DNA of 64,000 nucleotides from contig BSYQ01000006.1 of assembly GCA_030272585.1 (NCBI GenBank), positions 1,451,001 through 1,515,000 of the forward strand. The letters are read 5' to 3'. Of this stretch, positions 20,501 to 63,000 are shown piece by piece (within the stretch, counting starts at the first letter, position 1; every line of letters begins with the position of its first letter). The notes under the pieces are model-generated. The model saw nothing but the letters and a program-made list of their open reading frames with translations, was not told the origin of the DNA and made no database searches. This DNA is from Bryopsis sp. KO-2023. Taxonomy: Eukaryota > Chlorophyta > Ulvophyceae > Bryopsidales > Bryopsidaceae. Both the position numbers and the translations under genes were made by a program.

Positions 20501-22023
20501 ACTCCAAGCTAAAATCTCCGATGCTGTCAACATCTCTATGTGAAGGGAAATCATTGTCCGATTGCTTTCAAAGGTGTTTGTGTCTTCTGGGGTGTTATTT
20601 TTGGGGGGGGGTCTCAGGGCAGCCATCTTCACTTGCCATGCGTTCACTCCCCAATCTGTGATTGGGATTTTTTATCTAATGTCATGCATGGTCCCCTCCC
20701 AGCGTTTACTCGGTGTAAGTGTCTCTGTTTCCTGCAGGCTTTCAGCATTGCACCTTATCCAGGTTGCGACAGAAACTGGCAAAATCTTGGCACACATCCA
20801 TACCATCCCCATGCAGAGTTCGACAGAATTCATGCCATTTTCCAAGGAAACAGACACGGTCTTGTTTCGGGATTCCGCCCCGATGAGCGATTGGTTGAAA
20901 TCCCAAATTCATGATGGGACATTCTGGCAAGCACAGGACCCCACAATTGCATGGAGCTCAGCGGAGGGCGAAATCCGTATTCTCATGAGGGATGGGGCAC
21001 CGTGCACCGCCACGATAAAACATCAGAATGAGGTCAGACGAGGTTTTGGTCCATGGTATCCCTTCGTTTCGTTTCTGAGATGGAGACGAGCCACGGTGGT
21101 GGAACATCACAAAAAGGTGGGACGCTGCTTTTTTCTCGTCTTTTTGTGGCAATGATTCAACCACAGGGGGATATTTCACCACCTCAAGTGGATAATTCTG
21201 AGCCCGCATCAAGGAAAAAAACAATCGATGAACCTTTGATAAACGCGAACATCCTCTTGCTGTAATTGGAAGATGCAACATCGTGTAGAGTGTGTTTGTT
21301 TGGGGGTGGCCAATAGAAGCGGTAAAGAGATGTAACTGTCGTTTGATATTGCATAAGCTTTTGCAGGCTGGTTGGCTTGTATATATAATATATTTATATT
21401 CTGCCCCTGCCCAGTGGATCTTCATTTGTGTTGAGGTGTTCGGTGGTGTATTTCTTGTTCAGTCTGGATCCATGCCTAATCATCTCATGCACGAATTGGA
21501 TGCTTATCTTCCGGAGGACCCATCCCTCCTTGTGGAAGCTTCCCCTCGATTCGACCCCTGTTGGTTGCATGGAGACATGACTCATGACAACATCCTTACA
21601 ACACTGGATGATAAGCCACACAAAAACGGAGTCATCCCAGCTGAACCTCCCCAAGAAAATGGAGCATTCAACCCTCCAGTGACAGTTATCGATTTTGGGG
21701 ATGCTGGCCATGGGGATGCTCTGTACGATTTCGTGGCAGTTGCGATTTCGTCTCTGAAATGTAAGGAGGATTTGATGGCTCCATTCTTGGATTCGTATTT
21801 GAGGAATCGAGGGGTGCTTGGTGGGGAGCCCATGGTGTTTTCGAATCGGAGCATCAGCTTGTCAAAGATTGCAATGTGTTATACACTGCTGCATGAAGAC
21901 AGCGCCGTCCGGCGAGTTTTTGAACTGAGGCCGGAATTGAGGAAGTCTCAAACACTGGATGAAGTGCAGGTTAAGTTTTGGGGATTTCTAGACAAGTGTG
22001 TAACAAACAATCATCCATGTTGA
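17590..22023 (+). CDS. F-box / JmjC / APH fusion protein, JMJ21-like
   Basis: Nine exons join in phase: 17590-17840, 18077-18330, 18422-18661, 18773-18880, 19154-19638, 19995-20177, 20368-20573, 20738-21032, 21463-22023, giving 860 residues. Residues about 10-60 are an F-box ([14 protein letters not shown]). The JmjC domain follows: HID in exon 4 supplies the His and Asp of the iron site, and [10 protein letters not shown] in exon 5 supplies the second His; [10 protein letters not shown] lies between. The last four exons are an aminoglycoside-phosphotransferase-like kinase domain with [10 protein letters not shown] and VIDFGDAG, the catalytic and metal-binding loops. This order matches Arabidopsis JMJ21 (943 residues). 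Members are 2-oxoglutarate/Fe(II) oxygenases, here probably also an SCF ubiquitin-ligase adaptor through the F-box. Substrates are unknown to me. All key residues I looked for are present, so the enzyme parts look functional. The start ATG gives a short leader before the F-box. Confidence 0.9.
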
Positions 22024-42595: not shown

Positions 42596-43541
42596 ATGAC
42601 TCCTACCGTCATCTGCATTTTGGCTGCGCTCGCCATCTGTACTGGTGAGAGCAATGGATACTGGGGCTGCGGCAGGATTGTTTTTCGATAAGAGTGGTTA
42701 GACCGTCCGTTCGATATGCGAGCGTCGTTTTTTGGAACCCATAGTTTCGTGTGTATGCCTTCCAGGTGCGGCTGACCTGCCAACGTGCGACTTCTTCAAG
42801 ATCCCAAAGGGCTACCTTGAGGCCTCCAATGGAAAGGCTGGCAATATCAAGTGCACCCAGTGGGGAAGCTTGGACCAAGCAAAGGCAGAGTGTCTGGCAA
42901 ACAAGGGTTGCGATGGGTTTTCTTTCGGTCCAAATGGATCCGGTTTCAGTGGCTGTTTGAAGAAGAACCGCGCGGCTGGATACAACGGTAACGCAGCCTA
43001 CAGCGGGTATCACAAGAATGTGGTGGGTTGCTGTGGTGGCGAAGAGTATGCTCTCCAGAATGGCGGCGCGTGCTCCGCTTCCACAGCAGTCGAGAAGTTG
43101 GTGAGCCAGGGCAAGCCGGTCAAGCAGTCTTCGATCGACTTCTCGGGTAAGCCAGAGCGGGCAGTGGATGGCAATACGGATACGAGCTACTCCTCGGAAT
43201 CCTGCACTCACACGAAGAAGACGAAGAACCCGTGGTGGCAAGTTGACCTGGGCGCCACCTACCAGATCACGAAAGTCGTCATCACCAACCGTGGCGACTG
43301 CTGCTCGGAACGCCTCCACAACTTCGAGATCAAGGTCGGTAGCGAGCAGGGCTCCAACCCGAATGAGTGGTGCGCCACAGGACAGAAGATGGGTCCGGGT
43401 GAGACCAGAAGTTACTCGTGCCCTATGGTTGGTCGTTACGTGAACATCAAGATCTTCGATACCGAGTACTTGACTATCTGCGAGGTCCAGGTCTACGCCA
43501 TGGTCGCTGCCTCCGCCCAGATCTACAGAATGCTCCTCTGA
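42596..43541 (+). CDS. secreted F5/8-type (fucolectin-like) lectin
   Basis: Two exons (42596-42644, 42766-43541) join in phase into 274 residues. Exon 1 codes almost exactly a signal peptide (MTPTVICILAALAICTG). Residues about 20-95 are Cys-rich (TCDFFKIPKG, CLANKGCDGFSFG, GCLKK) and look like a PAN/apple-type module. Residues about 115-265 are an F5/8 type C, fucolectin-like domain: AVDGNTDTSYSSESC, NPWWQVDLGATYQITKVVI, NRGDCCSERLHNFEIKVG, GRYVNIKIF, ICEVQVYA. The adjacent Cys pair and the WWQVDLG motif are typical of the family, which binds sugars, often fucose, with calcium. It would act outside the cell or in the wall. Its GC-rich codon use contrasts with the AT-rich DNA around it. The start is fixed by the signal peptide. 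Confidence 0.85.
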
Positions 43542-46997: not shown

Positions 46998-47225
46998 CCA
47001 CCTCCCACAACAAATGAACTTGATACAGATGACATATGACAGGGCGTAGTGGAATGTATTCCCAGTACCGAACTGTCATGGATGTCATGACAACCCTTCA
47101 GAAGGCACCACCAATGAGACTGAAACAGAGTAGAATGCGCCGTCTTTTTCTTTTGTTTTCTGGAGGAAATGGTTCCAAATGTGTGGCCCGTGTGCTTACG
47201 AAGAATACTGCAAAGATCAATACCT

Positions 47226-48170
47226 CACTCACGTTACGAAAATTACCCAATTCGTACCCAAAACTACCCGCGGGCTACCCGTTTTTTAATGGCATGAATT
47301 GGGTAATTTTGGGTATATTGGGGTATACCCCAGCTGGGTATTCTATGGGTATGATTTGGGTATGCATTGGGTAGTTGTCGAGCTCGTTGGGTACGGATTA
47401 GGTAGTACCAAAAACATACCCAAAGCTGGTGGGTATGAATTGGGTAGTACCCACAAGATACCCGAAGTTTGTGGGTATGAATAAGGTAGTACCCGATCCA
47501 TACCCACACCAAAACGGGTACGAATTGGGCAATACCCAATGCATACCCACCAAGTCCGGGTATCTTTTGGGTACTACCTAATTCATACCCACCAAGTTCC
47601 GGTATCTTTTGAGTAATACCCAGTTCGTACCCGTTTTGGTGTGGGTATGGATCGGGTACTACCTTTTTCATACCCACAAACTTCGGGTATCTTGTGGGTA
47701 CTAACCAATTCATACCCACCAGCTTTGGGTATGTTTTTGGTACTACCTAATCCGTACCCAACGAGCTCGACAACTACCCAATGCATACCCAAATCACACC
47801 CTTAGAATACCCAGCTGGGGTATACCCCAATATACCTAAAATTACCCAATTCATGCCATTAAAAAACGGGTAGCCCGCGGGTAGTTTTGGGTACGAACTG
47901 GGTAGTTGTCGGAGTTGCTTGGTACGAACTGGGTATTACCCAAACGATACCGGAACTTGGTGGGTATGAATTGGGTAGTACCCAAAAGATACCCGAAGTT
48001 GGTAGGTATGAATTGGGTACTACCCAATCCTTACCCACACTGAATGGGTATGTATTGGGTATTATTCAGAAAGTACCCTATATATACCCAGAAATGCATA
48101 CTGGGTATGTAATGGGTACGCTTTGGGCAGCCACCCACTATCAATCATTTATTACAGATCAGGTACAAAT
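47226..48170. repeat. left subterminal GGGTA array with a large palindrome
   Basis: About 950 bases are packed with GGGTAC, GGGTAT and their complements, spaced roughly 10-25 bases. Around position 47574 the array is palindromic: the CCGCGG at 47268-47273 pairs with the one at 47875-47880 and arms of about 300 bases match with few changes. Translations in both strands give a pseudo-repeat (YELGSTQKIPE), a by-product of the unit and not evidence of a gene. Confidence 0.8.
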
Positions 48171-50246
48171 CGGGTGGTCTAGTTCAGACCCACTATGTCC
48201 AAAACAACAAAAATAGCAAACAAGAAATAATTTACAAGAACAATTGTTCCTTCACTCACAGCCAGTCCTCAACCTCCAAATGCATACAAGTGCATATATT
48301 TGTGCACATCAGAAAACAAGCAATATCCCCCATTCAAATTCTTTTGGAGCCTTAATTCTCAAAAAGGGGTGTCCAATGAGTCAAATTCCCTCTGAAGAGT
48401 TTTCAACCACCTCTTCCCCCTCAGTTCTTTTCGGAGGTTGCTAGCCTTGTCTTGGATATCTAATATCTTGAAAACCCAGTCCTCTGGCTCTTCTTTTCTG
48501 CATCAAAGGAAATGCACACACACACAAGGTTGGCACCTTTCAGCTGTTGCATTTTGCAACTATTCCGTTAATTCTATTCAAAACAGAGATTTCCCACTGG
48601 CATGCCTGTTAGACCCCCTCTACGAAACACGCTGTTTCATCTGAGTTTCTGCAAGAATGGATCTGTGTGGGGCCTGAAGGATAGTCGATAAAATATATGG
48701 TTAAAGAAGGAACATGGATACATATATCTGGAAAATCAAAGAACTCTGTTTTCTACCGTATGTGTGAATACACTATCACACAAGAAAAGAACTGTTTGGG
48801 AGGAACGGGTTTGCACATATTTTCTATTCAGTTGGGGAAGGGGGGGGAATCTCGTCACTTGTGACAAGTATTGCACAGTTCAATTGGACACTCTTTGTCC
48901 AAGCAAGACCCACCCCGAATCACTTATATATTTTTAGCAGCGAGTCAAGGCTTCAGCTGCATCTTATGTGTTTTTCAAGATTATGGAGTTGCACAGGGAC
49001 AAATCCCAAATTTCTTCAGATACCTCAGCATTGCATCCTTGGTGTGGTAAGAGTTGAAGATTTTATGCTCCAGAAACCGAGAGGCTCTTGCAAACTTGCT
49101 GATGTTAGATCCGACAGAGGGCGCTTCCATTGAGGATTCTGAAAACATGGTTCACGTCTGCAATCGAGTGGTCTCATCGACACACATGCTGTTGCTGGGC
49201 TTACGAAGTTCACTCCCTGGCCGCACCCACGAGCTACACAGCCAAGACCAGAAAGTGGCTAATTCAGGAAAACTGTGTATGTGCAAGAACACTTTGATGA
49301 CCAAAAAACTGTGGCTGTAATCACCACCCGATTCATGAGCACGATCTTAATCTTAGTCAGACCTTCTGCGCCATGATAGACAGCATGCATCATAGAAATG
49401 TTTGACAAAAGAGTCTACATGCACCACAACTTTTTGAGCAAGACTCCACATGGGTTGAAACTCCACGAGCAGCAAAGTTGTTCCACAAAGCATAGCAAAG
49501 TATTACATATGGTAGGTACTTCTGTGGCTCACAACAATTCATCTCTTTTCCTCGTTGTCAGGGTTTTGACTCAAGAACACCACCCCCTGCTCTCTACCTG
49601 GGCAGTGCAAATGTTTGATGCCACCTTGTCCCTTCTAATATGCTGTTCTCTCTGCAAGGCCATACAGAATGCATGTCAAACACTACCAGGCTTGCTCCAG
49701 AAAAACCTTATTGTCTGTCTCAGCTATTGCTCTGTCACATACCTTTCCAGGGGAAAAAACAACGACAAAGCCTTCCAGTTCTTATGTTAACTATGCCACT
49801 TTGCCGGCGAAATGTTTGTGCCACATTGGTAGCCGCACAAGAGGCGTGACAAAAAAAATATGTTTTCATTAAAAACAAGTTTTTTCTTCACTGAGAAACG
49901 TGAGAAGTGACTTATGTCAATTCCCTTAGCAGTTTCCAATCCTTTGCCTCAATGCGCGTACAATATTCATGCTCAGCGTCCAAATCACAGCAAGAAGTCG
50001 TCCTCCGTTTTCACGTCGGAGCACGTCGGTTTCTCGAACGGCGGCGCCACCCAGGCACCAAGGTCGCCGAGGCCGCGAAAGCGCGGCAGTCCATCTGTCC
50101 GAAGCAGGGCGGAAACTTTCCCCGGGAATGGTTGGCTGCAGGCCAGGGGTGGACGAGGTTTTTCTGGTGGGTTGAGATAATCTATTGCAATTGTGAGTAT
50201 GTCGGACTTTTGCTGAGGGTTGCCGTGCTCGTACATGTTTTGGGTC
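48171..50246 (+). pseudogene. interior of the transposon, with decayed coding traces
   Basis: The clearest trace is on the plus strand at about 48978-49320: IPNFFRYLSIASLVW, an in-frame TAA, then ELKILCSRNREALANLLML and SENMVHVCNRVV. More protein-like pieces follow with stops and shifts up to about 49500. They may be remains of a transposase or a captured gene; I cannot identify the family. The stretch 49970-50190 is GC-richer and has open frames on all sides. Nothing else is supported. Confidence 0.35.
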
Positions 50247-50254
50247 AGCATTGG

Positions 50255-51091
50255 CAGGCCACTTTATTTGAGGACACGTGAGGACATTGTCCTCATTTAA
50301 GGTCTTCAACCTGTCCTCATTTCACAAAGTTAAATCCAGTCAGCCGCAGACAAACACAGCCGTTTTTCGAGAAGCCGACCCTGCCCACTCGCATCGTTGC
50401 TATCTCTGAGCACCAGAAAGGAAAGGAAAGGTGTTTCGCCTCATTTCGCGACTGCCCATTTCATTTCGATGGTCCCAACAGCTTTTTCTGTACATATCGT
50501 GCGTTGAAACAAGTGAGTCCGACTCATGTGCGTTTCCACGTCCCCGACGTTCGGGGTTGAACGTCAGGGAACAACGATCGCCAAAACGACCTTGATATTA
50601 GGTGCTGGTGGAGTTGGCTGTTTGTTGTCTTTTTTGAGGCTCAGATTTAGGTGGATACTTTGTCGACTGACGATTGTCAAGGAAAAACGTCACCACCTTG
50701 GGAGTGCAACGGAGTATAGTTGCGTGTCCCAAGGCGACGTGTTAGAGCTTTTCTCGAATTTCTTGTGCAGTTTGCCCCGAGCTTTTCTCGTCTTGTAAAA
50801 GGCAAGGGCGCTTTTGGGTTGCCAGGGTATTATCGCGATGAGTTTTCACGTGATAGCAAGCGTTACAGCCAGCACGAGGGGTATTTTGAGAGGGCCCTCT
50901 CCTTTCGCACTGCTGTGAAAGTGTGCGGGGTTAGTCTCCTTGCGTCCAGAGACACATCTGCTTGTTTTTTTTTTCATTCTTGTGCTGTTCTTACTCATTG
51001 TCCTCACCCAGTCCTCAAATAAGCCTCACAATGTGTCCTCAAATACCAGAATGAGGACAATGAGGACAGTGTCCTCAAATAAAGTGGCCTG
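50255..51091. mobile_element. hAT-like non-autonomous element (MITE)
   Basis: An 837-base element with terminal inverted repeats starting CAGGCCACTTTATTTG on both ends (23 bases perfect, then a diverged extension). It is flanked by the 8-base direct repeat AGCATTGG (50247-50254 and 51092-51099). Just inside each end are several GAGGACA/TGTCCTC motifs in both orientations. CAGG-type ends, an 8-bp duplication and subterminal motif clusters match the hAT superfamily. No transposase frame is present. It sits at the inner edge of the right GGGTA array, so it inserted after the outer element. Confidence 0.85.
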
Positions 51092-51808
51092 AGCATTGGG
51101 TACTACCCAAACAGTACCCAATACGTACCACAGTGGGTACGATTTGGGCATGTCAGGGTAAAGTTTGGGTACACAAGAAGTAGTTCTGCCAAAAAGTACC
51201 CATGTTTACCCAACACGTACCCATGCTTTTGCATCGTTTGGGTAAATATTGGGGACTACCCAAAACGTACCCAAAACGTACCACATTTGGGTACGTTTTG
51301 AGCACCCCTGGGTAATGTATGGGTACATGAGTGGTAGTCATGCCAAAAAGAACCCAATCAATACCCAAAACGTACCCACGCTTTTGCATAGTTTAGGTAA
51401 ATATTGGGTACTACCCAAAACGTACCACATTTGGGTACGTTTTGGGCACGCCTGGGTAAAGTTTGGGTACCCAACAAGTAGTTCTGCCAAAAAGTACCCA
51501 ATATTTACCCAACACGTACCCATCCCTATAATTTTTTGGGTAAACATTGGGTACTACCCAAAGCGTACCCACGGCATACCAAGCACATCTCGCTTACCAT
51601 AGGCGTGTGGTATGTCTGCGGTACTTACCCAATTCTACCCACTATTGGGCATGGATTGGGTACGGTTTGGGTACAGTTTGGGTAGTCAGGTGGGTATTTA
51701 CCCAAAACGTACCCAATGCTGGGTACGGTCTGGGTATTTGATGGGTATGGTGTGGGTACTTGGGTATGCAGTGGGTACGATTTGGGTAAAAGTGCCGTTA
51801 CGCGAGTG
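51092..51808. repeat. right subterminal GGGTA array with ~150-base tandem units
   Basis: GGGTAC units in both orientations, arranged in about three longer tandem copies of roughly 150 bases; the block TGCCAAAAAG recurs near 51188, 51341 and 51487. The last 130 bases have mostly direct GGGTA units leading to the terminal repeat. Confidence 0.8.
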
Positions 51809-51811
51809 CCT

Positions 51812-60047: not shown

Positions 60048-63000
60048 ATGACTTTTCTTTTCTTATCGAACAAAGAGTTACTAGACATTCTGACGAAAAT
60101 AGAACAGATCCATGGGGTACAATCCCATCCACGAAAACTGTTCGAAGCCATCGACTCCTTGGCGTTTGTCGATGATGAGCAGCTTCTCGCCATGCACTTG
60201 GCGATGGAGTATCAACAGGTCTGTTCTAAAGATTGATTTGACATTGAAGGTTTCTAAAAATTTCTGATTGGTAAGGTAAAATTATATTGGTGAGCGCCTT
60301 TTGATGTGATAGGTTGGAGCTGTGAAAGCGTTCAACCTCAATCAGGCTGTGAACACCGATGCTCTTCCCACCAACAGCTTGTCCATCGCAACCCCAAGCA
60401 ATGAAAAACCATCAATCCCCTTGGTCAGGGGAAAATCATGGGTCGATACCATGTATGGGGGGTGGGATGGTGCAGGCGGCTTTGAATCCAGCTCCAACGT
60501 TTTGGGGAAGAACGACGCCTATCCCATCTTCAACAAGTCACTGGGGGCTGAGGACAGCTCTGAAACAAGCAATGGAGTGGCGACCACTGGCGTGGTAGGG
60601 GTTGGACAATCGCTTGGCGACGCTGAAAAAGGAAAGCTGCTTGGGGAATTCGATCCAACGACTGTGAGCTCGAATGAGGTGATGGAGCTTCAGAAAGCGA
60701 ACGACAAACGAACCCTGTTGCGACGCTCATGTGTTGTGAGTTGCATGCAAACGTTAGCATTCGATTTTTCGACGAAAGAACGACCCGATGCTTTCTTTCG
60801 AATGTTCTCTTTTTCAAGGTGTAGGGGTGGTAACTTACGACCCCTGAACAACGAACCTCTTCAAAAAACACCTGTTTTAAAAAACGACTAAATGTGCGAG
60901 AAATGAATCTTTAAGCCAGCCGATCTCTGTCTTTGAAAAAGATCTGTCCTCACAGGAACTCAATGCTACACATGCAAATGATACTTCAAGGGAAATGGAG
61001 TGCTTGGCTTGAAATCTGTGGGGCGTTGCTGAAAATAATGTTATATACTTGTGTGTTTTTATAGTTTCTCTTCTGGCAAAAGACTGAGAGAACAATCACA
61101 ACCAGAGAAATCGGTGGGTCCGACAAAAAACATGCCGCCGAGCTTATCAAGGCCAGCGGAACCAAGACACCTGAAGTGTCATTTAGCTCAGGTAGCTATA
61201 ATGCATTTTCTTATTTTCATCCAAGGGCATCACCAGAAAAAGAGAAAAAAAAATGCTCGAACTTGTGATTGTTAAGAAATATGTTTATGGCATGAGCAGA
61301 GGTTCATTCCCCTTGCACCAGGACAACTCCTGATCCTCTAAAAAAACTTCACACAACAAAACCGTTTTGCTGAATTTCACCAGCTCAAGGAAAAAAAGAA
61401 TATGACCCATGACAATCTTTGAATTACTCAAGCCCCCAGAAAATAATTTCCTATTTATTTATTTTTTTCTGCTTTCCCTCACTGTGGATCCAAATCATGT
61501 GTTTTATGTTTGTGATGATGACTCATTGTTCTTTCCTCCACACAGGTCCAGGTTTGACTGCTCCCCCTGGCCGATGGTTGGGCCTTCCTATTCTCAACAT
61601 TGTGCAAGAAACCAAGGCAGGCACTGATCTTGACGCGTTGGTGGTCTTTGACCCACCCCCCTTTGCAACAAAAGCTGTTTTGGAGGCGGTCGAAGACGAA
61701 ATAGACTTGATTGCTTGCATCACTGAAGGAATTCCAAAGCACGGCATGGTGGGTGAACTGATCGCTGGGACAATAAACACTCCCTTGCAAAGAAATCTAT
61801 GCAGTTTGGTGTGGCGAATTGAATGGATCGATAGGCTTTTGTCTGATCAGTTTGTTTTTGATTCGATGTGGCAGGTCAGAGTCAAAACTGTGATGGCTAG
61901 TCCAAGCAACACTAGACTGATGCGCGGAATCGTGTCACAATCTGGAACCCTCATCTACGAGGTAACATCCTCCCCCGCAAAAATTTGCTTCAAATCACAC
62001 GAAGTTTTCCATCCACTGAGTTTATTCGATCATAACAGTGGTGTTTTTTTTTTTAAACTTTTACGAGCATATATAATTGATTCAATTCACAAAGAGAGGA
62101 AGGGTGTCCACAATCTGCATCTGTTTTTTGACGCATCGGGCTGACAATATTCACCATCCACTTGGCTGAGCCTTGGCTTTCCTCTCTAGATACACCACCT
62201 TTTTTTCCTGGAAACGATGAGCTCTGTGATGATGATTAGAATTCATATGTGGTCAAGGACATCTGACAGTCATGATGCATAACCTATATGATCTGAACAG
62301 AAAAGCTCACAAAGTTGGGTTCCCAATTATTTTTTGAAACACCGAGTCTTTCGTTTCGCGGTGCTGGGTTTCGACCGTATTTGTATGGCAATGATGCATT
62401 ATTTTCATAGAAGATTGCATCGATGAGATGTGCCATGCTGACAACATTCACCATTCACAGTCTGAGCCATACATGACAGCATCTCTTCACTTACTCTGTT
62501 TTTTCGACGAATAAACTATTCTGCGCTGCTTGTTTGTTTACGCCTTCCTGAACGTTATCCTGTTTTATTCTACTGTAGGTCACTCGTTCCTGCAATGCCT
62601 GGAGCTGGCCCTGTGCTTGCCGACCAAAGGCAATGTCCAGAAAGGGGCATTGGTGGAGGAAAACAGGGAAAAGGGGGACCTCCAGAAAGCTTACTACAGT
62701 CTGTTGCATGTCACGGTGTCCTCCAAGCTGGATGGGGTGGTGCTGAAACTTCCTGAGGCGACATTGAAGGTCATTCTGTCGGCAGATGGTTTGCAAAGAA
62801 TTGCTGCCTCCATGATACAAGGTGCTGAGAGAAGCACCTTGGGAGTGCAAGGCGTTCATAAGAGAATCTGCATTGAGGAGGTAGGATTGAGAGTGGTTCC
62901 ATAGTACAGAAAGTGGGGAGGGGGAACGGGTTTTTTTTTTCCAGTGGGGGGGTTTCTCATGAATAACCTCTGAAAAAAACCTACTGCAATCAAATGAGAC

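Follow-up and report, generated by a model that had tools for sequence, protein, structure and literature searches.

The window, by which we mean the whole 64,000-nucleotide stretch of Bryopsis sp. KO-2023 DNA analyzed here, is part of contig C6 and contains two blocks dense in the motif GGGTA that lie 3 kb apart. The initial annotation, made from the letters of the window, had read these blocks as opposite ends of a single CACTA/EnSpm-like transposon. We found that positions 47226-51808 form one complete DNA transposon, whose termini begin CACTC and which is flanked by a 3-bp target duplication, CCT. The features of the element are listed below (unstranded unless a strand is given), and those of a second element nested within it are given further on.

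47223-47225: left copy of the target duplication, CCT (from the sequence, and from the single CCT in all six empty sites read)
47226-47238, + strand: left terminus, CACTCACGTTACG (15 exact left ends genome-wide)
47237-47911: inverted repeat within the left array, arms 47237-47547 and 47601-47911 (311-bp arms, 95% complementary)
47244-48118: left GGGTA/TACCC array of 62 sites, most often 11 bp apart (22 of 61 neighbor distances; site count compared with shuffles)
48176-50246: interior with no GGGTA sites and no recognized gene (five open reading frames scanned)
51098-51788: right GGGTA/TACCC array of 45 sites, most often 11 bp apart (20 of 44 neighbor distances; site count)
51796-51808, - strand: right terminus, CACTCGCGTAACG (17 exact right ends genome-wide)
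51809-51811: right copy of the target duplication, CCT (from the sequence and the empty sites)

The termini lie exactly at 47226 and 51808, where they had been placed. Read on the window strand, the right terminus is CGTTACGCGAGTG and ends precisely at 51808; the terminal inverted 13-mers are alike at 11 of 13 bases, and CCT stands directly outside both of them. Both ends begin with CACTC rather than the canonical CACTA, as had been noted, and the fifth base is the sole deviation.

To establish whether other copies stop at the same two sequences, we searched the genome (91.1 Mb in 28 contigs) with a pattern consisting of CACTCRCGTWACG, 4-6 free bases, and TTACCC, and used the reversed pattern as a control. 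The end pattern had 32 exact matches (15 left ends and 17 right ends) and the control had none. Twenty-eight of these ends pair to give 14 complete elements, between 2.5 and 16 kb long, which share both ends and bear out the proposal that the GGGTA-rich blocks belong to one element. Four ends are unpaired: C13 has a left one, and C4, C8, and C12 each have a right one. Similarity searches gave 21 matches for one window end and 19 for the other, inner and partial ones included; among these, the stretches on C4 and C12 hold exact family ends and the one on C3 a partial end. The target duplication is exactly 3 bp in all 14 copies that have both ends, with 12 different triplets represented and agreement between flanks that never extends beyond 3 bp.

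We next looked for empty sites by fusing the window flanks with one CCT and searching with the joined sequence. Among the 24 rows returned, two are the window's own flanks, 12 are other places on C6 that match across the joint (87-99% alike), and the remainder are partial. Six of the 12 places were read, and all six are uninterrupted, with a single CCT and no insert. Because these sister sites carry one CCT, we conclude that the element inserted into one member of a C6 repeat and that CCT was duplicated in the process. The repeat itself has at least 12 further members on C6, at about 1.50-2.31 Mb, and every row of the search lies on that contig.

Comparison of the copies bears on the age of the family. 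The copies on C15 and at C3:3398731 are identical over 3587 bp and have different flanks; their identity argues that the family moved recently. The C9 copy has eight differences from these two in 3397 aligned bases. With the nested insert left out, the similarity of the window copy to the C15 and C3 copies is 97.8%, and a copy on C8 is 84% like them. The family comprises several subfamilies. The element inserted as one unit with a 3-bp staggered joining, and near-identical copies of it lie on several contigs.

The subterminal blocks were examined by counting GGGTA on both strands. There are 62 sites in 47226-48175 (65 per kb) and 45 in 51085-51808 (62 per kb), none in 48176-50254, and two in 50255-51085. 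Outside the element, 59,417 bases hold 40 sites (0.67 per kb). The count for the whole window is 149, compared with 57.9 ± 6.7 and a maximum of 75 in 100 dinucleotide shuffles. Both ends carry many repeats of one short motif on either strand, as is characteristic of CACTA/EnSpm elements. The outermost sites of both arrays read TACCC inward, in a run of four on the left and seven on the right, so the claim that the motifs follow the same order inward holds at the level of orientation. The accompanying description of GGGTAC as self-complementary was wrong: just its GTAC core equals its own reverse complement. In the left array GGGTAT (32 sites) outnumbers GGGTAC (15 sites).

The inverted repeat in the left array reflects a duplicate of the left end in inverted orientation that lacks the outermost 11 bases. 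Fourteen of the 15 left ends were examined for an inverted copy of bases 31-80, the remaining one being too short, and five have it: those of the window, C15, C13, C9, and C3:3398731 copies. The array blocks differ in size among family copies. One example is the C9 copy (L004, C9:4457188), in which the left block is longer and the inverted second left end lies at 1093 as against 618; this copy is otherwise 99.8% like the C15 and C3 copies.

Two papers (PMC4158355, PMC8978399) give as hallmarks of CACTA elements a DDE transposase, inverted termini, duplications of 3 bp, and subterminal repeats in direct and inverted orientation. With CACTA/EnSpm elements (maize En/Spm and those of soybean, lettuce, and Chenopodium) the window family shares the 3-bp duplications, short inverted termini beginning CACT, and direct and inverted subterminal repeats of one short motif extending over several hundred bases, as well as deletion-type copies that lack a transposase and a long member whose putative transposase gene is split. 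It differs from them in having CACTC at all 32 exact ends, though the search pattern demanded CACTC, and in the large inverted repeat that the window's subfamily has within its left block. It also differs in a family transposase, described below, that escapes Transposase_21 and DUF4218 and has a possible C2H2 N-terminus (E 0.1, below cut-off).

The window copy itself has no recognizable transposase. Its five interior open reading frames (ORFs) gave no Pfam match over cut-off, the listed interior matches that fall outside the nested insert lie in other family members (40 of 77 candidates scored), and transfer RNA and Rfam scans of the window gave no hits. On the basis of the CACTC termini, the varied 3-bp duplications, the empty sites, the end arrays, and the near-identical multi-copy family, we conclude that the window element is very probably a CACTA-type (EnSpm-like) cut-and-paste transposon, and the lack of a recognizable transposase argues that it is a non-autonomous one. 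The CACTA/EnSpm-like interpretation of the initial annotation is thus supported by copies that end at the same two sequences, by their duplications, and by the empty sites.

A search of a longer copy for a transposase had been suggested, and we identified a candidate in the copy at C2:8447791-8461212 (13,422 bp), which has both family ends and several exons of a gene on the minus strand. The gene starts about 1.5 kb inside the right end of the copy. Its N-terminus is C2H2-like (zf-C2H2_4, E 0.1, below cut-off) and is followed by a block in which we recognized by eye D, GPREP, ADS, and CGWC motifs. Further pieces of the gene, GCKGVSVIPETIPY...HALLYGV and WFHFVETFSLYILQGIFSP, resemble later parts of CACTA transposases. 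A genome search with the central exon found one exact place and relatives at C9:2231319 (32%) and C2:5811333 (26%); a search with the C9 protein added two weaker relatives, at C4:2725079 and C2:6495981. In blastp comparisons the C2 protein matched the C9 protein at 1e-15 and the C2:5811333 protein at 9e-11, and the three proteins have the positions of D, GPxEP, and a second D in common.

The genome also holds a separate CACTA transposase locus at C12:547192-549374, with two PF02992 matches and one PF13960 match over cut-off. In genome searches with PF02992 and PF13960 this was the sole place over cut-off, and a weak PF02992 match lies at C1:9725575 (E 0.235). By PF02992 and PF13960 the C12 locus belongs to the same superfamily as the window family; its weak profile similarity places it in a different lineage. 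A profile built from the three C2-type proteins matched the C12 protein over 58 columns with a score of 29.3 (E 0.0034, probability 9.5%). None of 100 shuffles reached this score (best 21.8), and the reversed protein scored 16.8. No relative turned up in viral contigs, which were scanned with both the C12 protein and the three-sequence alignment.

Several points weigh against our interpretation. The fifth terminal base is C instead of A, and no movement was observed directly. The C2 gene has one in-frame stop and its splice sites were guessed. Transposase_21 and DUF4218 miss both this gene and its C9 relative, even at E 10, and Pfam scans detected no transposase over cut-off in the ORFs of the C2 copy, in the joined transposase reading, or in the C9 relative. 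Finally, the profile link between the C2-type proteins and the C12 protein is weak in its probability, its E value, and the 58 columns that it spans, and the C12 target was joined from three pieces that we chose. With respect to the first of these points, CACTG ends also occur in the CACTA/EnSpm superfamily. In our reading the C2 gene encodes a CACTA-type transposase that has diverged and is apparently damaged, with a link to the family that is weak but not absent. On this reading the suggested search of a longer copy did turn up a CACTA-type gene, in the 13.4-kb copy, and that gene is negative in Pfam.

The state of the C2 gene raises the question of whether a CACTA-type element with these ends is moved in trans by some other gene, such as those at C9:2231319, C2:5811333, C4:2725079, or C2:6495981, or the locus at C12:547192-549374. 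The sole close transposase exon in the genome sits in one copy and has the in-frame stop, the two copies identical over 3587 bp mean that a working enzyme existed recently, and the related ORFs and the canonical C12 locus are at hand in the genome. Against this, the C2 gene alone was found within an element bearing these ends, its surroundings being the only ones checked. We consider such an alternative mover fairly unlikely.

Much less probable is membership in another superfamily with CAC termini or 3-bp duplications, namely Transib, Chapaev, or PIF/Harbinger, an assignment that would fit the C at the fifth position and the lack of Pfam Transposase_21 in the long copy. Transib elements duplicate 5 bp, Chapaev elements 4 bp, and PIF/Harbinger elements 3 bp at TWA targets. 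The duplications of exactly 3 bp in 14 of 14 copies exclude makers of 4- and 5-bp duplications, the 12 different triplets exclude a TWA preference, and the protein of the long copy is weakly linked by its profile to a PF02992-positive protein. A view of the two blocks as ordinary tandem or simple repeats, with ends matched by chance, draws on their repetitive nature and their variable size among copies, and it is almost certainly wrong given 14 of 14 exact boundaries with duplications, an end-pattern control of zero, and the empty sites.

Returning to a non-autonomous CACTA-type transposon, we propose that a transposase of the kind seen in the 13.4-kb C2 member would be supplied in trans and would bind the GGGTA sites, which are often spaced by about one helical turn (11 bp). 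Once bound, it would bring the two ends together, the enzyme would cut at the CACTC termini, by analogy with other CACTA elements, and the element would be joined into a staggered 3-bp cut. The C2H2-like N-terminus of the C2 transposase is a tentative candidate for the part that reads GGGTA. A bolder proposal, which we regard as doubtful, is that the CACTA-like transposases of this family in a siphonous green alga form a branch of their own, deeply diverged, and that the transposase has its own C2H2 zinc finger, which reads the GGGTA array. Maize Spm requires a second protein, TnpA. If the proposal were true, one protein would do what maize Spm divides between its transposase and that second protein.

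The family is CACTA-like and looks undescribed, a new family of a well-known kind of element. In the open-access literature searched, we found no description of it and none of such a CACTA family in a green algal genome. The suggestion that the family may be undescribed is accordingly not contradicted within that literature, to which the comparison was confined. The window family is a CACTA family of a green algal genome that is well bounded and was mobile recently; it offers 14 complete copies and empty sites that can be read, and its clean set of ends and diverged transposase should be useful for asking how CACTA enzymes locate ends. It leaves unchanged the picture of what CACTA transposons do.

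A second element lies within the window copy, next to its right array.

50247-50254: left 8-bp duplication of the nested element, AGCATTGG (from the sequence, and from sister copies without the insert)
50255-51091: nested hAT-like element of 837 bp with inverted ends CAGGCCACTTTATTTGAGGACAC (from its ends and 8-bp duplications)
51092-51099: right 8-bp duplication of the nested element, AGCATTGG (from the sequence and sister copies)

We checked four sister copies at this site. Three carry a single uninterrupted AACATTGG followed by the right block; the fourth, on C13, is also without the insert and loses its right end soon after. Among 22 loci with relatives of the insert, 13 rows have both ends (two rows being one place), and the flanking 8-mers match at 8 of 8 bases in 11 rows, 7 of 8 in one, and 3 of 8 in one. 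The 8-bp target duplication and the short inverted ends beginning CAG are features that the insert has in common with hAT elements. Positions 50255-51091 are thus a later hAT-like insertion and no original part of the transposon, the hAT assignment being drawn from ends and duplication alone. The insert explains part of the 3-kb gap between the GGGTA blocks. Elements of this hAT-like family, about 0.8-1.2 kb long with ends CAGGCCACTTTATTTGAGG and 8-bp duplications, are common in the genome (loci L036-L057).

Two other long copies owe at least part of their length to nested retroelements: the copy at C6:1167585-1179527 has long ORFs that we named reverse-transcriptase-like by eye, and the copy at C12:2458968-2474513 has an RVT_1 match. 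In the C12 copy the retroelement lies at L071:36-3606 (RVT_1, E 6.6e-7) and is possibly DIRS-like, the tyrosine-recombinase-like match being weak (Phage_int_SAM_1, E 0.11, below cut-off). For the copy at C6:551960-567954, the genome search with the C2 central exon listed no close transposase exon. The C2 copy also contains a GH5 mannanase-like fragment at L073:1645-2055 on the minus strand (PDB 1rh9, E 1.6e-4) and, by eye, at 1298-1708 on the same strand. This fragment has a 60% identical relative at C7:4325365 and 18 genome matches, and it may be a captured host gene.

Elsewhere in the window, pieces of genes for an F5/8 type C domain protein (42702-43538, + strand), a CoA-binding domain protein (61413-62141, + strand), and a phosphotransferase-family (APH) protein (21289-22020, + strand) lie near the element. 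Three contig starts were read, and TTTAGGG-type telomere repeats are present at those of C1 and C3 and not at that of C2. The sequence evidence points to a green alga as host, probably Bryopsis. The chlorophyll a/b-binding family has 107 genome matches. One segment of this family is identical at 160 of 165 residues, as counted from the alignment, to chain 7 of PDB 6igz (374 bits; next chain 278), a structure from Bryopsis corticulans.

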